Part shown: in pieces, positions 2 through 12,505 of the stretch
How the letters are laid out: each line of letters opens with the position of its first letter
Position numbering within the stretch: position 1 is the stretch's first letter
IMG/VR virus record: IMGVR_UViG_3300027917_003282
Coordinates: 1-21,354 of that record
From: a virus
DNA: 21,354 nucleotides
Direction: 5' to 3' (one strand)
Program-made: the position numbers and the translations under genes
Notes under the pieces: model-generated
Seen by the model: the letters and a program-made list of their open reading frames with translations, nothing else
What the model was told of the DNA's origin: nothing
Databases searched by the model: none

Positions 2-802
2 TTAACCATTACCCCACTCCTTTTTTTGATTCGCTATTATTGAACCTTGTAAAATTTCTCTTTTTTTCCTTTGATATATCATACCGCCATCTCTAACGGT
101 CTTCAAAAACTTAACTTTTCTTGGATGAAAAATATGGTATGTTTTTACACTATTATCTATGATAAAATCCATCTTGGATGCTATAATGCGCTCTAGTAAA
201 TTAACATCTTCCCATCCATAAACTGGACCGAATTCTTCTTCATAACCACCCAATTCAACTAATTTATTAGTGTGCATTGCAAATCCAGCATGGAATGCTC
301 TATAATTATGATTAGTAACACTATGTACACACCTCATTTTTAATTTAGACAAGTCTATTAACGGATTTTCAAAAATTTTAGCTACATCAGATTCCCTCAA
401 TTCCACCATTTCGCATGGACGATATACTTGATTTTCTTCTAAGCAAGATATTGCATTTAAATAATTATTGCCTTCTATGAAAATTTCTGGATCACGAGTG
501 GCCACTATTCGACTTTGTAATCTCCTAAGAATATAATTTCTGATAAGGCATCCGTTGCGCTCTTTGGGGTTTGGCCCTCTTTCAAACGTGAACCAACACA
601 AATTATATTGTTCTGAATCTGATAAATCTTCATGTATACCATCATTAACTACTAAAATGACCCATTGATCTTTAGGTAAATCAAATTTCATTCTTTGTAA
701 TGTTGGGATTAGATAATTTTTGCGACCAAAATTTGGTATATAGACCACAATCCTTTTATTGGTCTTACTCCAATCAAAATTATGTTGATCAATATATGGC
801 AT
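2..802 (-). CDS. GT-A fold glycosyltransferase (family 2-like)
   Basis: Predicted 266-residue cytoplasmic glycosyltransferase that would move a sugar from a nucleotide-sugar donor. The N-terminus has the GT-A beginning, with IVVYIPNFGR at 18-27 and VILVVNDG at 48-55. An acidic DPE at 104-106 sits where the metal-binding DxD is expected. The C-terminal signature FHAGFAM...GGYEEEF...GWEDVNL (about 170-201) matches the galactosyltransferase C-terminal pattern, whose ED pair is catalytic. Histidines 223 and 226 could be metal ligands. The start ATG shares its A with the stop of the upstream mini-gene (TAATG), so translation is probably coupled. No transmembrane segment is seen. The acceptor is unknown; modified phage DNA bases, virion protein or host surface sugars are all possible. 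The family call is fairly sure, the substrate is not. Confidence 0.8.
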   Translation of the reverse strand: MPYIDQHNFDWSKTNKRIVVYIPNFGRKNYLIPTLQRMKFDLPKDQWVILVVNDGIHEDLSDSEQYNLCWFTFERGPNPKERNGCLIRNYILRRLQSRIVATRDPEIFIEGNNYLNAISCLEENQVYRPCEMVELRESDVAKIFENPLIDLSKLKMRCVHSVTNHNYRAFHAGFAMHTNKLVELGGYEEEFGPVYGWEDVNLLERIIASKMDFIIDNSVKTYHIFHPRKVKFLKTVRDGGMIYQRKKREILQGSIIANQKKEWGNG

Positions 803-933
803 TATTCTTTTTTCGTCATTTCCACCAATTTTTTGAAAGCAGCGGCCATACGATTATCTTGCCACCAAATGCCCAAATAAAATCCGTATCCCAATGATAT
901 CAAACACAACACAATAACCCACCAAATATTCAT
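802..933 (-). CDS. Small single-pass membrane protein (43 aa)
   Basis: A 43-codon gene between dnaE and the glycosyltransferase. It begins with an ATG that shares a base with the dnaE stop (TAATG) and ends in another TAATG shared with the next gene. A GGAG lies 7 bases before the start. The protein is one hydrophobic, tryptophan-rich segment (about residues 3-24, NIWWVIVLCL...) followed by a short charged tail rich in lysine and ending in KKE. This predicts an inner-membrane protein with a cytoplasmic tail. I do not recognise a family. The tight coupling on both sides and the good ribosome site argue that it is real. Confidence 0.7.
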   Translation of the reverse strand: MNIWWVIVLCLISLGYGFYLGIWWQDNRMAAAFKKLVEMTKKE

Positions 934-3224
934 TATTTTTCTCCGATGTTATTAATCATTTCCATACATGACCAACACTTATCTAGTGCCGTTACTCCGA
1001 GAACATCAAATTTTACACATCCCAGATATTCTCCCGCAATCATTTCAACACCCACCACACAATCTTTAGATTGAGCATCATAAGCCAAAGGTACTAATTC
1101 TTTGATGGGTTTGTCAGCTATAACAACACCAGCAGCGTGTTTTGATTGATTTTTCTTTGTCCCCTCTATTCGTATGGCTTGATCGAATAATGGCTTATAC
1201 CACTGATAAGCTTCTTTGATAGAATCGATGTGTTCTATAGACCAATTTAAAATTCCATAATCTGGATTATCAGTGGATTTTCGTATCTCTTGTAGATCGT
1301 CTGCTATTGATGCTTCGTCCGGTATATGTTTAGTAATCTCGTTGCATAGGTCGTGTGGAGTCATCCAATTTTTTTGTGGATCTTTACCCTCTTTTGTAGC
1401 CCTTACCTTCATCAAGTGTTTTACTAATTCTGGTTGGGCACGGAAAACCTCTTTGAGTGCAGCTTTTCCTTGCAGTCTTCCAAATGTAATCATTTGAGCA
1501 ACTTTGTCGTCTCCCCACCTTTTTTTCAAATATTCAATAACCTTGGGTTTAAAGTCTCTTCCAACATCAATATCTATATCTGGTAAACTAATATGACCTA
1601 GGTGCGGATTAAAATTCTCCAAAACAACTTTATCAACTAACCCAAAACCATATAAAAGGCGTGAATTATTAGGATTATCTGATCGTTTTTCTAGAGATAA
1701 TAAATCAAATATATATGACCACATATATTGATTATTTTTATCTATCCAATCAACCTCTTTTTGCATCTCATCAGTAAATTCCATTCTACCAGATTTAATT
1801 AATTTACCTAAATATTGAGCAAGCGTTTTACGTTCTTTCGGAACATTTCTATCCCGTAATCCATGAAAATTATCAGAATACCAATCCATAAAAGATAAGT
1901 CACCGTAATTGAAATGTGGGGGTATATTTCTGCTAACATTAAAAAATCGTTCGAAATATAAACCGTGTTCTATTGGATCAATTAGGGTTATATTAGTTAA
2001 ATAATTAATCAGAGAACCAGCACCAGATCCCCTCCCCTTGCCGCGTGGACCATTATTTTTATCGACAAATTTACAAAAATCCCATACAATAAGGAAATAA
2101 TCAGACAAATTGGCGGTTTCTATAACATTCAACTCTCTTTGTAATCTTTCCCAATATTGTTTTTTAGTTGGTTGATCTAAATGACCCAATTTTTGTTTGG
2201 CATTGTTGATACAAATTTCTCTAAGATATGAATGTGAATTTAAATTTTTAGTTTGCATAGTCCGATTGGTAAACTTTGGTAAAGATGGTTTTTGAGCCAT
2301 TTTATAATCTGATATTTTATCAGCTATTTCTAGAGTTGTTTCTAATTCTTTTTCTGTATAATGTTCAAGCATTTCTTCATAAGAAAGCATATAAAAGGTA
2401 TCTCGATAAAAAAAAGACATAGTGTCTGCACCAGATTGTCTTAGTTTTTCTTGTTCCTCTATGGTTGTATGCAATTGAGCACTTAATAAAAGCCTATGAT
2501 CATCTACATCCTCTTTACGACAATAATGACTATCCAAGGTTGCTACTGTTGATAAATCTAATGCGTTACCAATTTCTCTAAGACAATTAACCACAACTAA
2601 CTGGCTTGGCATATTCTCCTCTTGTAATTCGAGATAATAATTTTCTTTTCCAAATATTTTTATATATTCTTCTATTATTTCATATGCAATATTTCTCCAA
2701 TCGTGTTTCAAATATTTTTTAACTTCATCAATTGAATTTGTTTGTTCCCCCACAGATATTGCTTTGCCAACATCATCAAACAAAGATGAAGATAAATGTC
2801 CACCAATACATCCAGAAAGACATATTAAATTTTTACTTTTGTTAAAATTGGCAAGAGTTTCTAGATTTAATCTGGGGCGTCTATAAAAATATTCAGGTCT
2901 ATTTGATTCACTAACTATTTTAAATAAATCTTTTAATCCGTTTGTGTCTTTGCTTAATAGGGTTAGATGATAATGTTTGGAATTTTCTTTATTTTTGATG
3001 GATGGATGCAATTTCGATTGGTATAATTCTATTCCCACAATAGGTTTTACTCCATATTTTTTCCCAGCATTTATAAAATCCACAAAGCCAGCAATGTTTC
3101 CGTGATCAGTTAAACTTGTCGCGGGAGATCCTATTTCTTTAGCTCGTTTAATGATTGCTTTTGGGGAAGGAGTGCCGTCAAGTAGGCTGAAAAAACTATG
3201 TTGATGAAGGCCAGAATATGACAT
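933..3224 (-). CDS. dnaE: DNA polymerase III alpha subunit, PHP-palm half only (split or truncated DnaE)
   Basis: Family C replicative polymerase of 763 residues; bacterial DnaE is usually about 1100-1200. The PHP domain (about 1-250) has LHQHS with H7/H9, TDHG at 39-42, GIEL with E66, SGCIGG near 137 and TLDSHY near 229, so most PHP metal ligands look intact. The palm has YFLIVWDF at 376-383 and GKGRGSGAGS at 395-404. The catalytic aspartates are in PDIDID (D549, D551) and in VKFD (D740). About 110 extra residues (about 432-546) separate ERFFN from PDIDID, a spacing of only about ten residues in E. coli DnaE. The protein stops 23 residues after D740, where the fingers should begin, so the beta-binding and OB parts are absent. 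No frame downstream continues it. The ATG overlaps the preceding stop (TAATG) and follows AAGGA. An intact PHP site might provide proofreading, since no DnaQ is seen here. Confidence 0.93.
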   Translation of the reverse strand: MSYSGLHQHSFFSLLDGTPSPKAIIKRAKEIGSPATSLTDHGNIAGFVDFINAGKKYGVKPIVGIELYQSKLHPSIKNKENSKHYHLTLLSKDTNGLKDLFKIVSESNRPEYFYRRPRLNLETLANFNKSKNLICLSGCIGGHLSSSLFDDVGKAISVGEQTNSIDEVKKYLKHDWRNIAYEIIEEYIKIFGKENYYLELQEENMPSQLVVVNCLREIGNALDLSTVATLDSHYCRKEDVDDHRLLLSAQLHTTIEEQEKLRQSGADTMSFFYRDTFYMLSYEEMLEHYTEKELETTLEIADKISDYKMAQKPSLPKFTNRTMQTKNLNSHSYLREICINNAKQKLGHLDQPTKKQYWERLQRELNVIETANLSDYFLIVWDFCKFVDKNNGPRGKGRGSGAGSLINYLTNITLIDPIEHGLYFERFFNVSRNIPPHFNYGDLSFMDWYSDNFHGLRDRNVPKERKTLAQYLGKLIKSGRMEFTDEMQKEVDWIDKNNQYMWSYIFDLLSLEKRSDNPNNSRLLYGFGLVDKVVLENFNPHLGHISLPDIDIDVGRDFKPKVIEYLKKRWGDDKVAQMITFGRLQGKAALKEVFRAQPELVKHLMKVRATKEGKDPQKNWMTPHDLCNEITKHIPDEASIADDLQEIRKSTDNPDYGILNWSIEHIDSIKEAYQWYKPLFDQAIRIEGTKKNQSKHAAGVVIADKPIKELVPLAYDAQSKDCVVGVEMIAGEYLGCVKFDVLGVTALDKCWSCMEMINNIGEK

Positions 3225-3362: not shown

Positions 3363-4265
3363 TTATACTCGTTTTGGACACGATTGTTTATTTTTTCCGT
3401 ATTTATTTTCTATATATTCCGAACCATACGTGTGTAAATCACTCCATATCCTATTGCACGCATCCTCTTTTTGGAAACCACACATGCGACATTGCCAATT
3501 TCTGTTGCGTATGATTAAAGTATCAGCCTTAACGGTCGAGAAAAATTTAGATAATGCTTCAATAGTTAGTGGTATCTCATAATCAGTTGGTGGAATGGTT
3601 ATAGGTCCACCATCCAGGATAAAGTGAAATGTTATTAAAATATTTTTGTATTGTGGATATAACTTGCAAGCCGCAAAATGATAAAGTCTTAATTGAATGT
3701 CTTCTAGAAGTTTTTTGAAATCATATTCTTTACGAGTGTAGAAATCTTCTCTTTTACCAGTTTTCCAATCTACAATTTCAATCGTATTTTCATCTATTTC
3801 ATGCACTAAGTCCATTAAGCCTCTATTGGTAAATTGTGTGTTGTTGTGAAATTCATCCGTACATTCCCAGTCATCGCCCTCCAATTGAATTTCAAACCAT
3901 CTTTCTGCATCTATAATTTTCATTTTATATGGATTAAAATCACTATTGACAATATGTTCTATACACAAACGACATTTCTTGAAATCAGCAGCTTCTCCGC
4001 GAGATGTTTCACGTCGTATGGCAATGTGGGGATTTAATTTGGTGTGCCAAATCCACGCTTGATCTAAAAGCCACATTGGATCTATGTGTGTTTTATCTTT
4101 TTTCTTGAGTTTTGCCATCCATTCGAAAACCTGATGAACTATTGTGCCTTGAAGTGCTGCCTTTCCAGTTGGCGGTCGTATCTTCAATAATTGTTCTAAC
4201 ATATATTTGAAAGGGCAGTGATAATAAGTTTTAATGGCGCTAGCGCTACATTTACTAATCCTCAT
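3363..4265 (-). CDS. Cas4/RecB-type PD-(D/E)XK nuclease with Fe-S cluster cysteines (copy 1)
   Basis: Predicted 300-residue DNA exonuclease of the Cas4/AddB-like PD-(D/E)XK group. In order: C17 in YHCPFKY (first cluster cysteine), H44 in GTIVHQVFE (motif I), D152 in GLMDLV, D166 and K168 in IVDWKTGK (the D..DxK core), QLRLYHF with Q191/Y195 (the QxxxY motif), and C259, C262 and C270 (CRMC...C), which with C17 would hold a 4Fe-4S cluster. An in-frame ATG also exists at 4289. I prefer 4265 because AGGAAG lies 7 bases upstream and the MRISKCSASAIK start fits the family, with an 11-base overlap onto the kinase gene. It probably processes DNA ends in phage recombination or replication. Apart from the second Cas4-like nuclease, no CRISPR genes are nearby. 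Confidence 0.88.
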   Translation of the reverse strand: MRISKCSASAIKTYYHCPFKYMLEQLLKIRPPTGKAALQGTIVHQVFEWMAKLKKKDKTHIDPMWLLDQAWIWHTKLNPHIAIRRETSRGEAADFKKCRLCIEHIVNSDFNPYKMKIIDAERWFEIQLEGDDWECTDEFHNNTQFTNRGLMDLVHEIDENTIEIVDWKTGKREDFYTRKEYDFKKLLEDIQLRLYHFAACKLYPQYKNILITFHFILDGGPITIPPTDYEIPLTIEALSKFFSTVKADTLIIRNRNWQCRMCGFQKEDACNRIWSDLHTYGSEYIENKYGKNKQSCPKRV

Positions 4266-5016
4266 GGCGAAGCTTCCTAAACATTGCATCTACAATAGGA
4301 TCAAGTAATCTATTTTGTTCTTCTATTGTGTGTTTCTTATTATCGACAATGTACGAATATGATTCGTGTGGGTAATTGTCTAATGCTGTTTCTGATGAAT
4401 GCTCATCTTTGCCAGCGACATTACGCAATAATCTTATTGTTAATCCGCCATTTTGTTGAACACCTTCTATTTCGTTGGGAAATCTGGCATCGGTAATAAT
4501 GGCAAGACGTTTATTGTCACGTCGAATCTTTGCTATAGTGGCATTTACCCATGCGTTACCATACATTTTTCTCACAACATTGGTTCCAAAATATTGCAAA
4601 ATTTCTCTAGCAGCCATGCGAGACTTAATTTTTGTTTTATATTCAATATCATCGACACCATTTAAATAATCATCCACTTCCGGCATGTCTTTCCATAATA
4701 ACGACGTTAAGCTATTTTTTTGTTCTTCTGTTCCATAGCATTGTTCATGTGCCAAACCAAAAACGTCAATACAAAATTCTTTTAATGGATCTGCAAAACT
4801 ATAAAGTTTAATACTCTTATCTGCAAAAAGTCTATTGAATTCTCCTTCATAAACCGAAATCCAGTGATTGTTGACTTTTATGGACAACCAACCATTTTTT
4901 TCAATTCTAAATTGTGTAATAGCACGCATATATTGTAAATATCTACCAGCTATATAGTTGGCTGCTGTATTTTTGCCAGATCTTTTTTTACCAGATAAAC
5001 AACAGATTAATTGCAT
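4255..5016 (-). CDS. Deoxynucleoside monophosphate kinase (T4 gp1-like)
   Basis: A 253-residue P-loop kinase that would phosphorylate dNMPs to dNDPs, feeding phage DNA synthesis in the cytoplasm. The N-terminal LSGKKRSGKN (7-16) is the Walker A loop. It has N16 where S/T or D is more usual, similar to SGKDT in T4 gene 1 protein. Other family marks are SFADPLKEF (about 93-101), AAREILQYFGTNVVR (about 135-149, the conserved region after the insert) and ITDARFPNEIE (about 174-184). The ATG overlaps the primase stop (TAATG), with GGGAG upstream. In T4 this kinase also accepts hydroxymethyl-dCMP, so modified bases are possible, but no hydroxymethylase gene is in the window. Confidence 0.87.
   Translation of the reverse strand: MQLICCLSGKKRSGKNTAANYIAGRYLQYMRAITQFRIEKNGWLSIKVNNHWISVYEGEFNRLFADKSIKLYSFADPLKEFCIDVFGLAHEQCYGTEEQKNSLTSLLWKDMPEVDDYLNGVDDIEYKTKIKSRMAAREILQYFGTNVVRKMYGNAWVNATIAKIRRDNKRLAIITDARFPNEIEGVQQNGGLTIRLLRNVAGKDEHSSETALDNYPHESYSYIVDNKKHTIEEQNRLLDPIVDAMFRKLRHED
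4273..4278 (-). promoter_or_regulatory. Ribosome binding site for the 3363-4265 nuclease
   Basis: AGGAAG on the minus strand, 7 bases before the ATG at 4265 and inside the end of the dNMP kinase gene. It decides the start in favour of 4265 over the upstream in-frame ATG at 4289. Confidence 0.6.
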
Positions 5017-6167
5017 TACTTATCTCCCAAAATTTTCTTTTTAGATAATTGTTGAATTATTGGTATTATCTGCTCGTTAATCTCTCCGAGCAACATGTCG
5101 CCAATATCGTTAACATTATTCGGTGTTATAAACACTAATTTAAAAAACCATTGTAATTCATTGTTTAATTTATCAATAGCCTTTCGTCCAGATTCATCGT
5201 TATCTAATATAAATATTAATGTTAATGCTCCAGCCTTTTGCAATAACAATCTTTGTTGTTTGGATAAATTCAATCCAAACATAGCTACGCTATTTTTAAC
5301 TCCAGCAGATTCTAAAGCCCAAACATCGCCTGGGCCTTCACATATAATGGCGACACCGTTGCTTTTAATAAAATGTTTAGCAATCCAATAATTATACAAT
5401 ACCGATTCTGTTTTAAAATCTTTTGAATGTCTCCATTTTGCATATAATGTTTGATATTTTTTATCGGGACATTTTGGCATAGCCGCATTATGATACAGAT
5501 TACATTTTTCGCATTTATCAAAAATACTTCTACCAGACCATCCAATTACATATTTTCCAGTTTCATCTAAAATAGGGAAAAAGGCTCTATTGAAAAATGG
5601 TTTTTGAGGATTTTGACAAATCGAGATATGATATTTTTTAATTATATTTGATGATATACCACGATTTGGATAATAAACATCGTCTGATGTCAATGTTGAT
5701 AAAATATCATGTAGCGGTATGGAGTTCGCTGGTTTTTGTGCTTTAATTTTCTTTTTATATTCTTTTATGGTTTTATCTATTATTAGTGATTCATCATTTG
5801 TTTTTTGTGTTGATTCATATTTTAACCCCAAAACCCCAACAACAAATTCTACCGCTTGTAAAAAAGTGCATGTTTTTTTTAATCTATTTGACAAAGCTCC
5901 CCTCACCAAACCGAAAATGCTGGATGATGGACCAGTAATCGCGTTTTGCTCACAATGTCTTGTAACACATCTCCAGTGTGGCGTCGGGATAGTCCAATAC
6001 AGTGATCTTGGATTATCACCATTATGAATTGGGCATTTGCATTGCAAATAATTTGGTCTTTCATTATAGTCTAAATCAAGAGCATCAAAAATTTCGGCGA
6101 CTCTATCATTAGCGATTTGTTGAATAGATTCAACTATATTACTATTCATCTGTTGTGTATGACTCAT
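5016..6167 (-). CDS. DnaG-type DNA primase with an extra cysteine insert
   Basis: A 383-residue primase that would make RNA primers for lagging-strand synthesis beside the DnaB-like helicase. The N-terminal zinc site is C45-P-I-H48 and C67/C72 (WRCVTRHC). The basic RNA-polymerase core is seen in VIGWSGRSI at 207-215 and LYAKWRHSKDF...VLYNYWIAKHF (about 241-266). Toprim motifs are IICEGPGD with E277 and ILDNDESG with D322 and D324. An unusual insert at 219-233 (CEKC...H...C) may form a second zinc knuckle inside the core. The usual C-terminal helicase-binding domain is short or absent. The start is uncertain: ATG 6167 overlaps dnaB by 26 bases, the in-frame ATG 6149 overlaps by 8, and neither has a clear ribosome site. 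Confidence 0.88.
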   Translation of the reverse strand: MSHTQQMNSNIVESIQQIANDRVAEIFDALDLDYNERPNYLQCKCPIHNGDNPRSLYWTIPTPHWRCVTRHCEQNAITGPSSSIFGLVRGALSNRLKKTCTFLQAVEFVVGVLGLKYESTQKTNDESLIIDKTIKEYKKKIKAQKPANSIPLHDILSTLTSDDVYYPNRGISSNIIKKYHISICQNPQKPFFNRAFFPILDETGKYVIGWSGRSIFDKCEKCNLYHNAAMPKCPDKKYQTLYAKWRHSKDFKTESVLYNYWIAKHFIKSNGVAIICEGPGDVWALESAGVKNSVAMFGLNLSKQQRLLLQKAGALTLIFILDNDESGRKAIDKLNNELQWFFKLVFITPNNVNDIGDMLLGEINEQIIPIIQQLSKKKILGDK

Positions 6168-7590
6168 TATCTACAGTTGGGTCTTTAACTGCCTCGTAAT
6201 AGGTCTTTCCTTCCATCAGTTTGGCACAAGTTAATTTATCTATAATATTAATATATTCGCCATCTGGAATTCCCGGACCAAATCTGGTGTCAGTAATAAC
6301 CAATTTTTTTGTACCATTTGATGGTGGGTCAATGGCCCTTTCTTTGGTTGTTTTGTCTTTTAAAATAGTAAACGTAGAACATAACCACAAAATTCTATCC
6401 GAACCGGCTGCGAATTCTCCACCTTCTCCCTTAACACCATCCCTATTCAATTGTACTGCGGCCAATATTGGTATTCCCCAATGGAGGGCAAAATCATGCA
6501 AAGCAGACATTAAAAATCCAATTAATTGATATTCTCTCATACTATCTTTTATATCCGATGAATTAGTTAATTTGACATAATCATAAATCAATAAACATGG
6601 ATTGGCCTTGCCTTTATCATTAAAGCCCACATATTTTGATAACCATCTTCTCACAATAGACGTTACTATTTTTATACTTTGTCCGGCTATAGAACAATGT
6701 GTTAATGGTATTTGTTGAATAGCCTCTTTTATTTGCCATACCCTTTTCTTTTCATCATCAAAATCAGCGAATCTACCAGTTTCTAATCTATTTAATGATA
6801 TACCACTCATTAAAGATATCAATCTATATTTTTGTAGTTCATGAGATAATTCTGTATCCAAATATAAAACTGGGACACCATTGGAGGCAACATGATTACC
6901 GACATTTAAACACATAAACGATTTTCCAATTTTGGGCCTAGCTCCCACGATATTAACTGTACCTCTTCTCAAACCACCCCCAATGGCTAAATCCCATTTG
7001 GGGAAGCCAGTAGACAAACCAACCAAATCCTTTTTTTCTTCTGCTAACAATTTAAGCGTATCTAATAAATTATCACATATTGGTTTAATTGTATGTTTAT
7101 CAGAAATAATATCACCAGTTAATTTAAAGATTGGTTTTTCTATTGTGGTTATAATATCATTGATATTTTCACCACCATGCATTTCCAATAAAGCCTTCTT
7201 GGATTTGTCCAAACAAAAAACAGCACTACGAGCTATGGACAATTTTCTAACACATGCTGCTAAATTTAATGTATTCTCATGTGAAATAGAATTAATCAAT
7301 AATGCTTCTATATACTCAACGGCCCTCTCTTCTTTTTCAAAAATCTGATATGAATGTGTTCTGGCGATTCCCAAAATACTGGGCATATCAAAATCTTTAA
7401 CATTTTGATGATGCACAAGTTCTTGTAGAATTTTAAAAATGATCTGATTGTGCGTCCAATAAAAATCTTTAACTGATAAAATTTCCTCAATATCCAACAA
7501 ACAATCTGGACCATGGCATAATATGCCAGACAAAACAGATCTCTCTAAACCTGCATCTTGTAGTGGGGCATTAATCCTTTTATTATTCAT
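6142..7590 (-). CDS. dnaB: Replicative DNA helicase, DnaB family
   Basis: A 482-residue hexameric 5'-3' helicase that would unwind DNA at the fork. The N-terminal helical domain (about 10-110) begins with APLQDAGLERSVLSGIL, the usual DnaB opening. The RecA-like motor has STGFPKWDLAIGGGLRRG (193-210), Walker A GARPKIGKS (216-224), LYLDTELSHE with catalytic E247, Walker B LLIYDY with D337, and AAVQLNRD (377-384), matching DnaB motif 4. Length is normal for the family. Its ATG shares the A with the stop of a zinc-ribbon frame (TAATG), and the downstream primase overlaps its 3' end, so helicase and primase are made together. No distinct ribosome site is seen, which suggests coupling to the preceding frame. 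Confidence 0.93.
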   Translation of the reverse strand: MNNKRINAPLQDAGLERSVLSGILCHGPDCLLDIEEILSVKDFYWTHNQIIFKILQELVHHQNVKDFDMPSILGIARTHSYQIFEKEERAVEYIEALLINSISHENTLNLAACVRKLSIARSAVFCLDKSKKALLEMHGGENINDIITTIEKPIFKLTGDIISDKHTIKPICDNLLDTLKLLAEEKKDLVGLSTGFPKWDLAIGGGLRRGTVNIVGARPKIGKSFMCLNVGNHVASNGVPVLYLDTELSHELQKYRLISLMSGISLNRLETGRFADFDDEKKRVWQIKEAIQQIPLTHCSIAGQSIKIVTSIVRRWLSKYVGFNDKGKANPCLLIYDYVKLTNSSDIKDSMREYQLIGFLMSALHDFALHWGIPILAAVQLNRDGVKGEGGEFAAGSDRILWLCSTFTILKDKTTKERAIDPPSNGTKKLVITDTRFGPGIPDGEYINIIDKLTCAKLMEGKTYYEAVKDPTVDNESYTTDE

Positions 7591-7754: not shown

Positions 7755-8063
7755 TTAACGCTCAGCTTCATTTGTTACATAATTTTTGGATGGATTACCA
7801 TCAGTGATTAATACAGTTTGAGTCCCTAGAATTCCCTTTTGTTCTGTGGGCTGAACAATCGGATTTAATAAATCTTCTTCTTCCTCTTGATTTTTCAATT
7901 CTTCTATTTTATTACATATTTGATCTGAAGTTGCGGGGTTTTCTTTTGAGCCTATTTGATGAACTTGGACTATTGATTCGCCAGTAATTTGACCATAACC
8001 TTGACGAACTAATTCCCACTTTTTTCCTATAATTCCTTGTTTGATTAATTCAAGTGGATTCAT
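7755..8063 (-). CDS. Unknown protein with acidic linker (N-terminal part of a possible zinc-ribbon protein)
   Basis: A 102-residue protein of unrecognised family. The first 55 residues (MNPLELIKQGIIGKKWELV...) look like a small folded domain. A very acidic stretch EEEEDLL (about 60-66) follows, then a polar tail to VTNEAER. The ATG overlaps the previous TGA (ATGA) and has a strong AAAGGAG site 8 bases upstream. Reading past its TAA gives an in-frame zinc ribbon, so the natural product may be longer. Position between a recombination block and the helicase suggests a replication accessory role, but this is inference from neighbours only. Confidence 0.75.
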   Translation of the reverse strand: MNPLELIKQGIIGKKWELVRQGYGQITGESIVQVHQIGSKENPATSDQICNKIEELKNQEEEEDLLNPIVQPTEQKGILGTQTVLITDGNPSKNYVTNEAER

Positions 8064-8473
8064 AAATTATCTCCTTTTTTATATCTGGCAAGACAAAGAT
8101 TGTTAAGTGACCTAGATAAGTCATCGACTTTTTTGGATATAAAAACCAATTTTGTGGCCCTTAATTCAATCGTTTGTTTCCATTGTTTGAGTTTAAATAC
8201 TTCGTCCCCCTGGGCTATATGTCGAACATGGTCGCACCACTGCAAAAAAGTTTGGTATTCATTATATTTGTGTTGTAGAAAAAGAGCATATTGGGATAAC
8301 ATAAATGCATATTCTGCTAATTCTATGGAAGTGAGTTTTCTGATTGTTTTGGTTTGAAGTTGCAATATTGTCTCAATTTCAGATCTTGGTGGTTCATTGA
8401 TTTTTAGTCCAAGAAAATTCTCTAGTTTTGACATTTCATTTTCAAAATGTTCGCGTTTTTCAGTGATGGTCAT
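8060..8473 (-). CDS. Helical protein of unknown function, possible recombination mediator
   Basis: A 137-residue protein that is almost all predicted helix, with heptad-like stretches such as LAEYAFMLSQYALFLQHKY (about 52-70) and ELRATKLVFISKKVDDLSRSL (about 103-123). The tail is basic. No motif is recognised with certainty. Three weak hints allow a UvsY-like recombinase loader: it lies two genes after the RecA-like recombinase, its length equals that of T4 UvsY, and it has the same helical, basic character. I would not name it on this. The ATG overlaps the upstream nuclease gene by 14 bases, and the TGA overlaps the next start. Confidence 0.75.
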   Translation of the reverse strand: MTITEKREHFENEMSKLENFLGLKINEPPRSEIETILQLQTKTIRKLTSIELAEYAFMLSQYALFLQHKYNEYQTFLQWCDHVRHIAQGDEVFKLKQWKQTIELRATKLVFISKKVDDLSRSLNNLCLARYKKGDNL

Positions 8474-8828: not shown

Positions 8829-9846
8829 TTAGCTGCATACTGGATTTAATTTCTTGTTCCAATTTTTGTGTAATGTCCGGGCTCTGTTGTAAAAATATTC
8901 TCATATTATCTAAACCTTGGAATTTTTGATCATCATTCAAAATGGTTGGCATTGAATACCAGCTACCTGCCTTTTGTATCAAACCAAGATTTTCTGCATG
9001 ATAAATAATATCCCTTTCTTTATCCACACCATGGCCATATCTTAATGGGATTTCGCATGGTATATATGGTTTCCCCAAAGCTGATGTAATGATTTTGCAA
9101 ACAATATCATGCCCATCCGGCGCATTTGTTTCTATATTTTTTTCCCACTGGCGGGCGAAAGTGACATTAATCCATACTGATACAGCATATTGAATAGCTT
9201 GCCCGCCCTTTTCAACCCATTTAGTTCTAGACATGGGATCTCTGTTTGTCATTAATTGTGAAATAAAAATCAAAATAATATTATTCTTATCTATGATTTG
9301 CTGCATTCTTCTTAAAAATTTGGCCAAAAGTCTTGGTGGGCCACCCATATCTTTATTGGAATCAAGCTTTTCACTACGTTCCATTATGGTAGACAACATA
9401 GCTATACTATCACAAATTATAACAGCATTTTCATGACTTTTTATAATTCTTTCAAGAATATCCAACCATTCTTCCGCTGAAAAAGTTTTTTCATTCTCTC
9501 TTACCATATTAAGTTGTGATAAATCTAATTCCCGAATAGTTTGCAATAAACCAGATTTACATCGCCTTTCAACATCCAAATAGAATGCTGGTCTATTTCT
9601 GTCAATAGCATTTTTTAATATCTGCAAACAAATAGAAGTTTTCCCAACTTTGGGACGACCAGAAAGCAAACAAATACTTCCATCTGGAATACCGCCAGAT
9701 AGTGCTATATCCAAAGACAACGCAATTGGAAGAATTTTTCTTCTTTGTTGGACCATTGAATTAGCTGTTATAAGAATATTTTTACCATGCTCTCTTTCAA
9801 GCCATTGATCGAAAGATTCATTAGATATTCCTTTGCGTTTAGCCAT
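8815..9846 (-). CDS. RecA-like recombinase
   Basis: A 343-residue strand-exchange ATPase, close to bacterial RecA in length and plan. LSLDIALSGGIPDG (43-56) is the RecA pre-Walker signature. Walker A is GRPKVGKT (63-70). FYLDVERR (88-95) holds the catalytic glutamate, E93. Walker B is VIICDS (D146). The sensor and L2 region is IFISQLMTNRDP (193-204) followed by GGQAIQYAVSVWI, like the GGNALKFYASVRL of RecA. The end, GHGVDKERDIIYHAENLGLIQKAGSWYS, matches the RecA C-terminal domain. It would coat single-stranded DNA and drive recombination-dependent replication and repair with the nearby Fe-S nucleases. The usual RecA N-terminal helix is present but diverged. More RecA-like than T4 UvsX-like by eye. 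Confidence 0.92.
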   Translation of the reverse strand: MAKRKGISNESFDQWLEREHGKNILITANSMVQQRRKILPIALSLDIALSGGIPDGSICLLSGRPKVGKTSICLQILKNAIDRNRPAFYLDVERRCKSGLLQTIRELDLSQLNMVRENEKTFSAEEWLDILERIIKSHENAVIICDSIAMLSTIMERSEKLDSNKDMGGPPRLLAKFLRRMQQIIDKNNIILIFISQLMTNRDPMSRTKWVEKGGQAIQYAVSVWINVTFARQWEKNIETNAPDGHDIVCKIITSALGKPYIPCEIPLRYGHGVDKERDIIYHAENLGLIQKAGSWYSMPTILNDDQKFQGLDNMRIFLQQSPDITQKLEQEIKSSMQLNDES

Positions 9847-10276
9847 GCTTTTCTAATTCCCTCAATTTACCCAGGTCTGTTTTAGGTCCGGTATCTATAA
9901 ATTTTTTATTGTTTTCAACGCTAATTCTAGGCGGTTGATTTTGTATGATTTTTTGTTTATTTACTGCTAATCTTTTGGCAGTTAATTTAATAATTTTTTC
10001 AATAGTTTTTTTTGCTAATAATGACTTGATTTTATATTGCTGAATAATTTCTATAATAGCGTTACAAACCATGGGGTCTTTGGGAGTATCAATTTTTTTT
10101 AGTAAATTATGAGCCCCTTTAATCTCTCTTCTGTATTTACTTCCCCAATCATATGGCTCAACATCTAACCAAAATCGTGGGCCAAGTTTTGGATTCATAT
10201 TTAGGCATACCAATTCTATTAAATAATGATTAAAAGCAATCTCCAAGCCAGGGGTTGTGGGTGATTTATATTTCAT
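9839..10276 (-). CDS. Unknown protein upstream of the recombinase
   Basis: A 145-residue protein with no recognised family. It has an aromatic-rich first half (GPRFWLDVEPYDWGSKYRRE, about 32-51), a helical lysine-rich middle (about 73-110) and a low-complexity polar tail. It is soluble by composition. It overlaps the recombinase gene by 8 bases and the upstream orphan by 11, so it is in the same transcription unit. The strongly basic character would suit a nucleic-acid binder, but this is only a guess. Confidence 0.72.
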   Translation of the reverse strand: MKYKSPTTPGLEIAFNHYLIELVCLNMNPKLGPRFWLDVEPYDWGSKYRREIKGAHNLLKKIDTPKDPMVCNAIIEIIQQYKIKSLLAKKTIEKIIKLTAKRLAVNKQKIIQNQPPRISVENNKKFIDTGPKTDLGKLRELEKHG

Positions 10277-10697
10277 CTTTATTTTCTATCAACAAAAACC
10301 CAACATCCTCTTTTGTGCGCTCCTGATTTTCACAATAATCAAAATTTGGTGTTTTATACCACCTCATCAAAACTTTATGTCCATCATAATATCCAATACC
10401 AACAAAATTGGCTTCTCCACCAGGATGTACCTTTTGATGCTTATATCCGAAACAATATCCTTTCTGATTGCTGGGCATTACAATTTCTTTTCCTTTTGGA
10501 CCCTGCAATCGCAAACATGTAATTTGTAATTGTGGATTGGCTTGCATAAATTTGGTTAACCTAGCCCATGCGGTACGTTGTCCGACTCTAGTATCCTCAA
10601 TAACAGTTCTACCATCAGACAATGAAGCCAAAAATCTAATAATTGGGGTTGTTTTGGTTAATTCAAAAGCCAGTGTTTCATCCAATGTTGTATTCAT
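10266..10697 (-). CDS. Unknown phage protein
   Basis: A 143-residue soluble protein without a family I can name. It begins with a beta-rich looking segment, IIRFLASLSDGRTVIED (about 19-35), then WARLTKFMQANPQLQITCLRL (about 44-64), and ends in FVGIGYYDGHKVLMRWY (about 98-114). The LSDG...W.RL arrangement recalls small conserved phage proteins of unknown role. The ATG overlaps the upstream TGA (ATGA). Confidence 0.72.
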   Translation of the reverse strand: MNTTLDETLAFELTKTTPIIRFLASLSDGRTVIEDTRVGQRTAWARLTKFMQANPQLQITCLRLQGPKGKEIVMPSNQKGYCFGYKHQKVHPGGEANFVGIGYYDGHKVLMRWYKTPNFDYCENQERTKEDVGFLLIENKDEI

Positions 10698-11282: not shown

Positions 11283-11614
11283 CAATTCTTGCTCCAAACC
11301 CTAAAAGCAAAATCGCATTCTAGATTACTGTCCACATTTTCAAACCCAAGTTGATCGCTTGCAGATCCAGGATAAAATTGCCCATTTATTTCTGTAAGAT
11401 ATGATCTACCGCCACATAGGCCGCAATTCACAAGAACCTTACAGCAAATAGGAGATAAACCTTCTTTGATTAAATCTTCATTGGTTTTGCATATTTGAAA
11501 AATCATTAATGCCCCACCACAATCTGCACAATTAATATAAACTTTCCCCCTGTTTTTTAATCCAAGTAAAAGTTTTTCTTGTGCTTGCTTAATTTCTATT
11601 TTAGATTTATCCAT
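11282..11614 (-). CDS. Cysteine-rich zinc-finger protein (two CxxCGG motifs)
   Basis: A 110-residue protein with C29-x2-C32-GG and C64-x2-C67-GG, spaced 31 residues apart, plus further cysteines at 42, 57, 58 and 100. The CxxCGG pairs resemble single halves of DnaJ-type zinc fingers and could hold one zinc ion between them. The N-terminus is a helix (EIKQAQEKLLLGLK). No J domain is present, so it is not DnaJ. The ATG overlaps the upstream stop (TAATG). Function unknown; zinc-binding is well supported by the motif pairs. Confidence 0.72.
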   Translation of the reverse strand: MDKSKIEIKQAQEKLLLGLKNRGKVYINCADCGGALMIFQICKTNEDLIKEGLSPICCKVLVNCGLCGGRSYLTEINGQFYPGSASDQLGFENVDSNLECDFAFRVWSKN

Positions 11615-11946
11615 TATGTTTCTCCAGTTTTGATATATTTCTCAGGATTTTTAAGTACATCCATATCTATTTTTTCGCCCCTCCACCATGGTTTTTTGTT
11701 TCTATATTTTTCTTTTAGTTTTTCTGTTGTGCGCTTGCGATACTGCCTCATCTCTTGTCGTTCTTGTTTTTTATAATAAGATTGGTCCCTTTTTATTCTT
11801 ATATTGATATTGTCACTAATCAATCTTATTAATGTTAATTTGTTACACTTGGGGCATTTCTTGAGTGGATCAGATTTAATACTATGTATTATATCGAAAT
11901 TAAATTCACATTCTTTATTTTGACATTCATAACTATACTCAGGCAT
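11614..11946 (-). CDS. FmdB-type zinc-ribbon protein
   Basis: A 110-residue protein starting MPEYSYEC, the hallmark of the FmdB/CxxC small zinc-ribbon family. Ligands are C8, C13 and C31-P-K-C34. The first pair is spaced by four residues instead of the usual two. After the ribbon comes a long, very basic region (RKRTTEKLKEKYRNKKPWW) that probably binds nucleic acid. It is the first gene after the promoter at about 11980-12009, with GGTGAG before its ATG. Many phages encode such proteins; the precise role is not known. Confidence 0.75.
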   Translation of the reverse strand: MPEYSYECQNKECEFNFDIIHSIKSDPLKKCPKCNKLTLIRLISDNINIRIKRDQSYYKKQERQEMRQYRKRTTEKLKEKYRNKKPWWRGEKIDMDVLKNPEKYIKTGET

Positions 11947-11979
11947 TTATGCACTCACCCAATCATCTTTCACTATAAC

Positions 11980-12009
11980 ATTATACCAATTCCTAAATTT
12001 TATTTTCAA
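11980..12009 (-). promoter_or_regulatory. Sigma70-type promoter with extended -10
   Basis: On the minus strand TTGAAA (12009-12004, five of six matches to TTGACA) is followed after 18 bases by TATAAT (11985-11980, perfect). A TGG directly before the -10 gives TGnTATAAT, the extended -10 element. Transcription would start near 11973 and leave a leader of about 27 bases before the FmdB-type gene. It falls in the only notable gap in this part of the window, and its -35 overlaps the end of the preceding gene. It looks host-polymerase dependent. Confidence 0.65.
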
Positions 12010-12505
12010 TGAAAGTTCCGATTTTTTTAGTGAATTTTCTCAATTCTTCTTTATGTTCCGGTCTAAATTCACCGCCATTACTCACTTCATATTTAATTCC
12101 TTTTTTTATGGCGGTCTGAATACTCATATCGCTATTGTAAACTGTTTGAGTCAACAGTTTCAATAAAGTACCTCTCTTAATTATAATTCTAATTAACAAA
12201 AAAGCAGCACCGACAAAGATAATAACTATTAAACTGGTGCCCATAACCACCCATCCAGCGCCACCAAATTTATTGTTAATGGTATCTGCGGTAACATTTT
12301 TGCGCCAAATAGATAATTGTTCGGCTATCTGGGTTGTTTGTTCTATTTTGTTATTAACTTCTTGGATTTTTTGAGCAACAATAGAAGCATCTGCCTTTTG
12401 ATCGACACGGGCCTCAAGAGCACTAAATTTACCATCTACAGCCCCAGGAGATATGCAGCCAGACAAAAAAAACAATATTAGTGGGAGTGGCGTTTTCGCT
12501 TGCAT
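11993..12505 (-). CDS. Lipobox plus transmembrane protein, candidate unimolecular spanin
   Basis: A 170-residue envelope protein. The N-terminus MQAKTPLPLILFFLSGC is a lipoprotein signal with lipobox LSGC (C17). Residues 25-70 are a helical, coiled-coil-prone stretch (ALEARVDQKADASIVAQKI). A strong transmembrane segment follows (about 84-109, WVVMGTSLIVIIFVGAAFLL), then a basic tail of about 60 residues. A lipid anchor at one end with a transmembrane helix beyond a coiled coil is the plan of unimolecular spanins, which fuse inner and outer membranes at lysis. The 66-residue periplasmic span is short and the tail long for a spanin, so a lipid-anchored inner-membrane protein is the alternative. 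AGAGGT 7 bases upstream supports this start, 28 bases inside the RNase H gene. Confidence 0.78.
   Translation of the reverse strand: MQAKTPLPLILFFLSGCISPGAVDGKFSALEARVDQKADASIVAQKIQEVNNKIEQTTQIAEQLSIWRKNVTADTINNKFGGAGWVVMGTSLIVIIFVGAAFLLIRIIIKRGTLLKLLTQTVYNSDMSIQTAIKKGIKYEVSNGGEFRPEHKEELRKFTKKIGTFIENKI

Follow-up and report, generated by a model that had tools for sequence, protein, structure and literature searches.

The DNA analysed here (the window) is an entire IMG/VR record, IMGVR_UViG_3300027917_003282; it is linear, 21,354 bases long and probably only a fragment. It carries dnaE-N, a gene that looks like a truncated dnaE: the encoded protein has the PHP and palm/thumb domains of the alpha subunit of DNA polymerase III (Pol III alpha) and stops at the border between palm and fingers. 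We argue below that this gene is one half of a two-gene polymerase. Its features are as follows, with residue numbers of the window protein unless E. coli DnaE is named.

933 to 3224, minus strand: dnaE-N, N-terminal half of Pol III alpha (PHP, palm/thumb), 763 amino acids, ending at about residue 577 of E. coli DnaE
2619 to 3209, minus strand: PHP domain (Pfam PF02811, E 2.6e-40, residues 6-202), all nine metal-ligand positions intact by alignment
1596 to 1928, minus strand: insert of about 110 amino acids, residues 433-543, just before the DID motif, characteristic of clade A (defined below)
1572 to 1580, minus strand: catalytic DID motif, D549 and D551, equivalent by alignment to E. coli D401 and D403
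1005 to 1007, minus strand: third catalytic aspartate, D740, equivalent by alignment to E. coli D555
954 to 992, minus strand: last palm helix, residues 745-757, at the end of the N-half (AlphaFold2 secondary structure)

Besides the PHP match, the open reading frame (ORF) matches the Pfam family DNA_pol3_alpha (E 1.4e-63), and it matches solved DnaE structures (best E 3.5e-70), aligning from residue 1 to about E. coli residue 577. With a PHP domain and a Pol-beta-like palm bearing a DxD...D triad, it has the make-up of a DnaE-type C-family polymerase. The original prediction, made from the letters of the window alone, had noted three catalytic aspartates, an apparently intact PHP site and a stop 23 residues after the last aspartate. 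All of this holds: in the alignment D549, D551 and D740 fall on the three catalytic Asp positions, the PHP ligands H7, H9, D16, H41, E66, H86, C139, D231 and H233 are kept at nine of nine positions, and the 23rd residue past D740 is the last of the 763. The truncated-looking N-half is real, every element of that observation being confirmed. The accompanying statement that everything from the fingers to the OB region is missing is correct for the record, in which no finger domain was found in any of the six frames of the 21,354 bases even at E<=10, but not for the gene family, in which relatives carry this region as a separate gene; moreover, the record ends 932 bp downstream of the dnaE-N stop, so that the absence of the second half from it means nothing. 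As to the insert at residues 433-543, which the original prediction did not mention, it is present in the window and in most members of clade A, and is apparently largely missing in contig L150; in L152, dnaE-N is cut at the place of this insert by an HNH-endonuclease insertion.

Relatives were found by an alignment-based scan of viral contigs, a single-protein scan of IMG/VR having given no matches. This first scan returned L008, L009 and L058 at 56-57% identity together with about fifty more contigs at 34-41%; a second one added about 25 contigs of the window's clade, the longest of them 181 kb. In nearly all of the first-scan relatives the dnaE-N ORF terminates at the same point. When 60 other split contigs, some of them near-duplicates, were searched over their full length, the missing half was present as a separate gene in 51. 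This second half, dnaE-C, encodes 470-650 amino acids starting at about E. coli residue 580-584, lies downstream of dnaE-N on the same strand (in G044 and G054 only if the record is circularly permuted and wraps round), and comprises the fingers (PF17657), the HhH motif/beta-binding region (PF14579) and the OB domain; the regions of DnaE that dnaE-N lacks are thus supplied in trans. The nine contigs without dnaE-C end 0.8-7.5 kb downstream of dnaE-N, too close to tell whether a second half exists there. In the relatives, then, two ORFs, each with its own start and stop, are homologous to consecutive parts of one enzyme; the finger motifs YQEQ/GKKK/FNxSH and the catalytic residues are conserved, and the palm triad is invariant among the split enzymes. 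Very probably, then, the window phage and dozens of relatives encode their bacterial-type replicative polymerase as two proteins, cut between palm and fingers. The first alternative of the original prediction, a second half that is encoded by another gene and joins non-covalently, is supported by these contigs and by the co-divergence of the halves described below, the joining itself being inferred. Among 50,697 phage records we found no cultured member of the window's clade, the best identity being about 33-36%.

The split contigs fall into two layouts. Clade A comprises the window, L008, L009, L058 and L126-L154; its C-halves are about 650 amino acids long, and the gap between the halves is 5.0-12.3 kb (8.7 and 17.3 kb in the two wrapped records), filled with glycosyltransferase, methyltransferase and related genes in varying combinations. 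In G001, and judged by similarity also in G002, the next gene after dnaE-C encodes a single-stranded DNA-binding protein. Clade B is mostly L010-L056, with halves usually 0.66-1.6 kb and at most 4.75 kb apart and a gap that holds a DnaQ-like exonuclease gene and up to three extra genes; the exonuclease gene follows dnaE-N in nearly all clade B contigs whose gap was read. By eye, the gaps of L016/L017, L011, L028 and L024 contain nuclease-like, ThyX-like and cytidylyltransferase-like ORFs. No DnaQ was found with PF00929 in G000-G003, a weak negative in that the same model also missed several clade B exonucleases visible by eye. The PHP site of Mycobacterium tuberculosis DnaE1 has been reported to proofread, and the intact PHP site in G000-G003 could do so as well. 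Most main-clade C-halves open with a short Cys-containing cap (C-x-C ... C), which is absent from those of L158, L163, L179, L190, L064 and the isolate phage phiT1; that this cap binds zinc is a guess.

Several observations suggest that the two halves work together as a replicase. Searches for PolA in 37 split contigs and for PolB in 26 found neither. The two findings that would have counted against the original prediction were not made, no complete separate polymerase having turned up in these contigs and no close relative having its dnaE in one piece. Purifying selection on both halves is strong in within-clade comparisons, with a nonsynonymous divergence (pN) of 0.10-0.16 against a saturated synonymous divergence (pS) of 0.73-0.94. 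The pairwise-identity matrices of N-half and C-half correlate at 0.94 over 44 contigs, which indicates a shared history rather than contact. AlphaFold2 models of the window N-half and the L008 C-half reached mean confidence scores (pLDDT) of 88.2 and 85.6; placed on the E. coli chain 5fku_A, the former covers residues 3-578, ending just past the last palm helix, and the latter 580-1074, so that at the break the two neither leave a gap nor overlap. The two-gene Pol III alpha is probably the phage's own and only replicative polymerase.

We propose, with a probability of about 0.87, that the window dnaE-N encodes the N-terminal half of a two-gene, 'genes-in-pieces' Pol III alpha that reassembles non-covalently. 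Each half would be a separate translation product with a start and a stop of its own, the two would fold as complementary lobes that dock at the palm-fingers junction (E. coli ~577/580) with no peptide bond between them, and the docked halves together would form the replicative polymerase. The C-half gene of this particular phage would be expected on the same strand, 5-17 kb past the end of the contig, after a sugar-/methyl-transferase cassette. Non-covalent reassembly is the simplest account; no intein was seen at the break, and no Rfam intron in the five records scanned. Physical docking, activity of the halves, the position of the window's own C-half and the origin of the break by insertion are what we infer. 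A few points weigh against this proposal: the record does not reach as far as the phage's own C-half; the assembly is suggested by separate models of each half, that is, by structural complementarity only; no contig is a certified complete genome, which makes the absence of another polymerase less than absolute; some of the split contigs are near-duplicates; and trans-splicing through an undescribed element is, strictly speaking, still conceivable, Rfam having found none.

The genes around dnaE-N fit a phage replication module on one side and the inter-half cassette on the other:

2 to 802, minus strand: glycosyltransferase-like gene, 266 amino acids, the first of any size in the inter-half cassette, weak Pfam match, orthologues at the same place in L126 and L150; the contig ends here
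802 to 933, minus strand: ORF of 43 amino acids with one predicted membrane segment, start of the inter-half cassette; its ATG overlaps the dnaE-N stop by one base
3363 to 4289, minus strand: PD-(D/E)XK nuclease, directly upstream of dnaE-N, a conserved replication-module neighbour
5016 to 6167, minus strand: Toprim (DnaG-like) primase, replication module
6142 to 7590, minus strand: DnaB-like replicative helicase, replication module

The coupled downstream frames that the original prediction had described, a mini membrane protein and a glycosyltransferase, are as stated: after the one-base overlap with dnaE-N, the stop of the 43-amino acid ORF in turn overlaps the ATG of the 266-amino acid one. 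The glycosyltransferase call by Pfam is weak (Glyco_transf_7C, E 8e-4, below cut-off), but orthologues of this gene stand first after dnaE-N in L126 (52% identity) and shortly after it in L150 (49%), from which we take it that the window stops inside the inter-half cassette. The replication module encodes a DnaB-like helicase, a Toprim primase, a RecA-like protein and nucleases, and the upstream gene order is kept in seven relatives (L126, L150, L008, L009, L058, L127 and L144). Of an own beta clamp there were sub-threshold matches only, in 1 of 19 contigs. Small genes at 8060-8473, 9839-10276 and 10266-10697 also keep their order across the clade; they have no PHROG match, and the two that were scanned against Pfam gave none either. 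In L058, the RecA-like (779 amino acids, 205-2544) and DnaB-like (900 amino acids, 4412-7114) genes are far longer than those of the window and are probably intein-bearing.

How the break arose is a separate matter from how the halves work. A plausible origin is that mobile or accessory DNA, such as an HNH homing endonuclease, inserted itself into dnaE. At 9986-12950 of L152, dnaE-N consists of two pieces with an HNH endonuclease ORF (11356-12015) between them, which shares bases with the end of the first piece and with the beginning of the second, so that DnaE would be made in three pieces; an HNH ORF is also found in the inter-half cassette of G002; the two indicate that endonucleases are at work in this lineage. 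The strongest rival concerns this origin only and is compatible with the two-gene replicase: dnaE might have been cut when a dnaQ-like exonuclease gene or some other cargo was inserted, and not by a homing endonuclease that such cargo joined afterwards. The presence of a DnaQ-like exonuclease gene after dnaE-N in nearly all clade B gaps read speaks for it, the HNH ORFs of L152 and G002 speak against it, and the original event is old and not preserved; we hold it to be somewhat less probable than its negation, though a serious contender.

Far less probable is that the halves are joined covalently through a split intein or split intron at the junction. Cyanobacterial DnaE is likewise encoded by two genes, but its break lies further along, in the fingers (Y|CFNKSH), and is healed by protein splicing of a split intein, as the original prediction had in essence remarked, whereas the break considered here lies between palm and fingers and has no intein. 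Inteins are common in the clade, so that protein splicing as such is at home there; L143 (9821-13459 and 20575-23409) and L147 (7944-11402 and 18163-20994) carry them in frame inside both dnaE-N and dnaE-C, after 'KPIIGC' in the former and at several finger sites in the latter; none, however, lies at the break. Reading of the ends showed that the N-half stops 5-35 residues after the last palm helix without an intein-like tail and that the C-half starts with Met shortly before homology resumes, so that neither an IntN tail on the one nor an IntC head on the other was found. No Rfam intron reached the gathering threshold in the window, L008, L010, L036 or L126. Separately, candidate fused frames with an inserted intein (open frames of 1,310-2,042 amino acids) were dropped, direct translation giving separate ORFs with stops.

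We regard as equally improbable the second alternative of the original prediction, a partial polymerase with another role, such as a PHP nuclease, outside any replicase. In its favour, the PHP site has all its ligands and the N-half by itself has a predicted fold. Against it, the palm triad does not vary among the split enzymes, every contig of sufficient length also has the second half (51 of 60, the other nine ending within 7.5 kb), both halves are strongly constrained, and neither PolA (37 contigs) nor PolB (26 contigs) was found; the alternative is left unsupported. An assembly error, a frameshift or the recent decay of an ordinary dnaE, for which one can say that the window is a metagenomic fragment, is the least probable of all and was rejected, because dozens of independent contigs, and phiT1 as well, are broken at this very site, no finger sequence follows in any of the six frames (the original prediction had likewise discounted a simple frameshift), and L126 and L150 keep the gene downstream.

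The site appears to have been used more than once. In trees of the N-region the split label needs three changes; the unsplit member L057 lies inside or next to the main clade, and L064 together with the isolate Rossellomorea phage phiT1 forms a second split group. A single origin for all split genes was rejected by the approximately unbiased (AU) test (p 0.007), and a single origin for the main clade was not (AU p 0.07). The trees are quick searches and the counts of origins provisional; provisionally, then, the sequences suggest that the same site was split at least twice. On a branch adjoining the main clade, L163, L179 and L190 have further split dnaE genes, without the Cys cap. In phiT1 (PV767480.1; L278, 3489-6771), DnaE is split at the same site as in the window clade: gp20 corresponds to E. 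coli 1-574 and gp18 to 584-1052, both annotated as DNA polymerase III subunit alpha, with a 49-amino acid ORF between them. The phiT1 protein is about 30% identical to the window protein and, grouping with L064, is by the same AU test (p 0.007) of an origin separate from the main clade. Among 80 DnaE loci of bacterial and archaeal genomes, 78 are unbroken and 2 are cut by a contig end.

In comparison with known systems, the split enzyme shares domain order, catalytic Asp triad and finger motifs with bacterial DnaE (E. coli, Taq, M. tuberculosis DnaE1), has PHP ligands as in the Taq and M. tuberculosis type enzymes, and its halves align to complementary parts of one bacterial DnaE chain; bacterial DnaE, however, is one polypeptide, whereas the phage enzyme comes from two genes up to 12 kb apart. 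The original prediction called a split at this domain border unusual, and rightly, yet there are precedents of two kinds. The split family-B polymerase 43A/43B of Aeromonas T4-like phages and the split nrdA of Aeh1 are likewise phage replication enzymes in pieces with mobile or intergenic DNA between them; activity of the split pieces was shown there, and 43A and 43B of Aeromonas phage 25 co-purify and polymerise (PMC2988022); the HNH-cut dnaE-N of L152 matches this genes-in-pieces pattern. The differences are that 43A/43B belong to family B, not C, and that the elements between the pieces are an endonuclease or untranslated sequence (PMC2988022), whereas between the DnaE halves here there is a glycosyltransferase cassette of 5-12 kb or a dnaQ gene. 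The second precedent comes from group 2.2 jumbo phages, in which a split and minimal Pol III alpha is specified by two genes lying far apart (Iyer et al., 2021, PMC7824862). That enzyme has the core catalytic and template-binding parts only and stands beside a family-B replicase (PMC7824862); the split DnaE considered here keeps PHP, palm, fingers, HhH and OB, and with no PolB in 26 split contigs it falls outside that minimal class. We found no paper describing a full-domain two-gene DnaE in the open-access literature, most subscription journals lying outside the scope of the search.

Bacteria replicate their DNA with Pol III alpha, which is taken to be a single, uninterrupted catalytic chain. 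One may speculate, doubtful as this larger picture is at present, that the palm-fingers junction is a natural and repeatedly used break point giving a stable two-subunit machine, that the main-clade C-half gained its Cys cap to stabilise or regulate docking, and that the gap became a slot for variable cargo such as DnaQ, nucleases and glycosyltransferases. Irrespective of these details, automated annotation of such phages will call 'truncated' polymerases or miss one half, and split dnaE shows a replication gene becoming an insertion slot for cargo. The two-protein phage DnaE is a ready split-polymerase design, and phiT1, being an isolate and hence testable, is a possible laboratory model. A widespread phage lineage that has all the domains of the enzyme, but on two proteins with the cut next to the active site, is a natural test of the degree of covalent continuity that a replicase requires.
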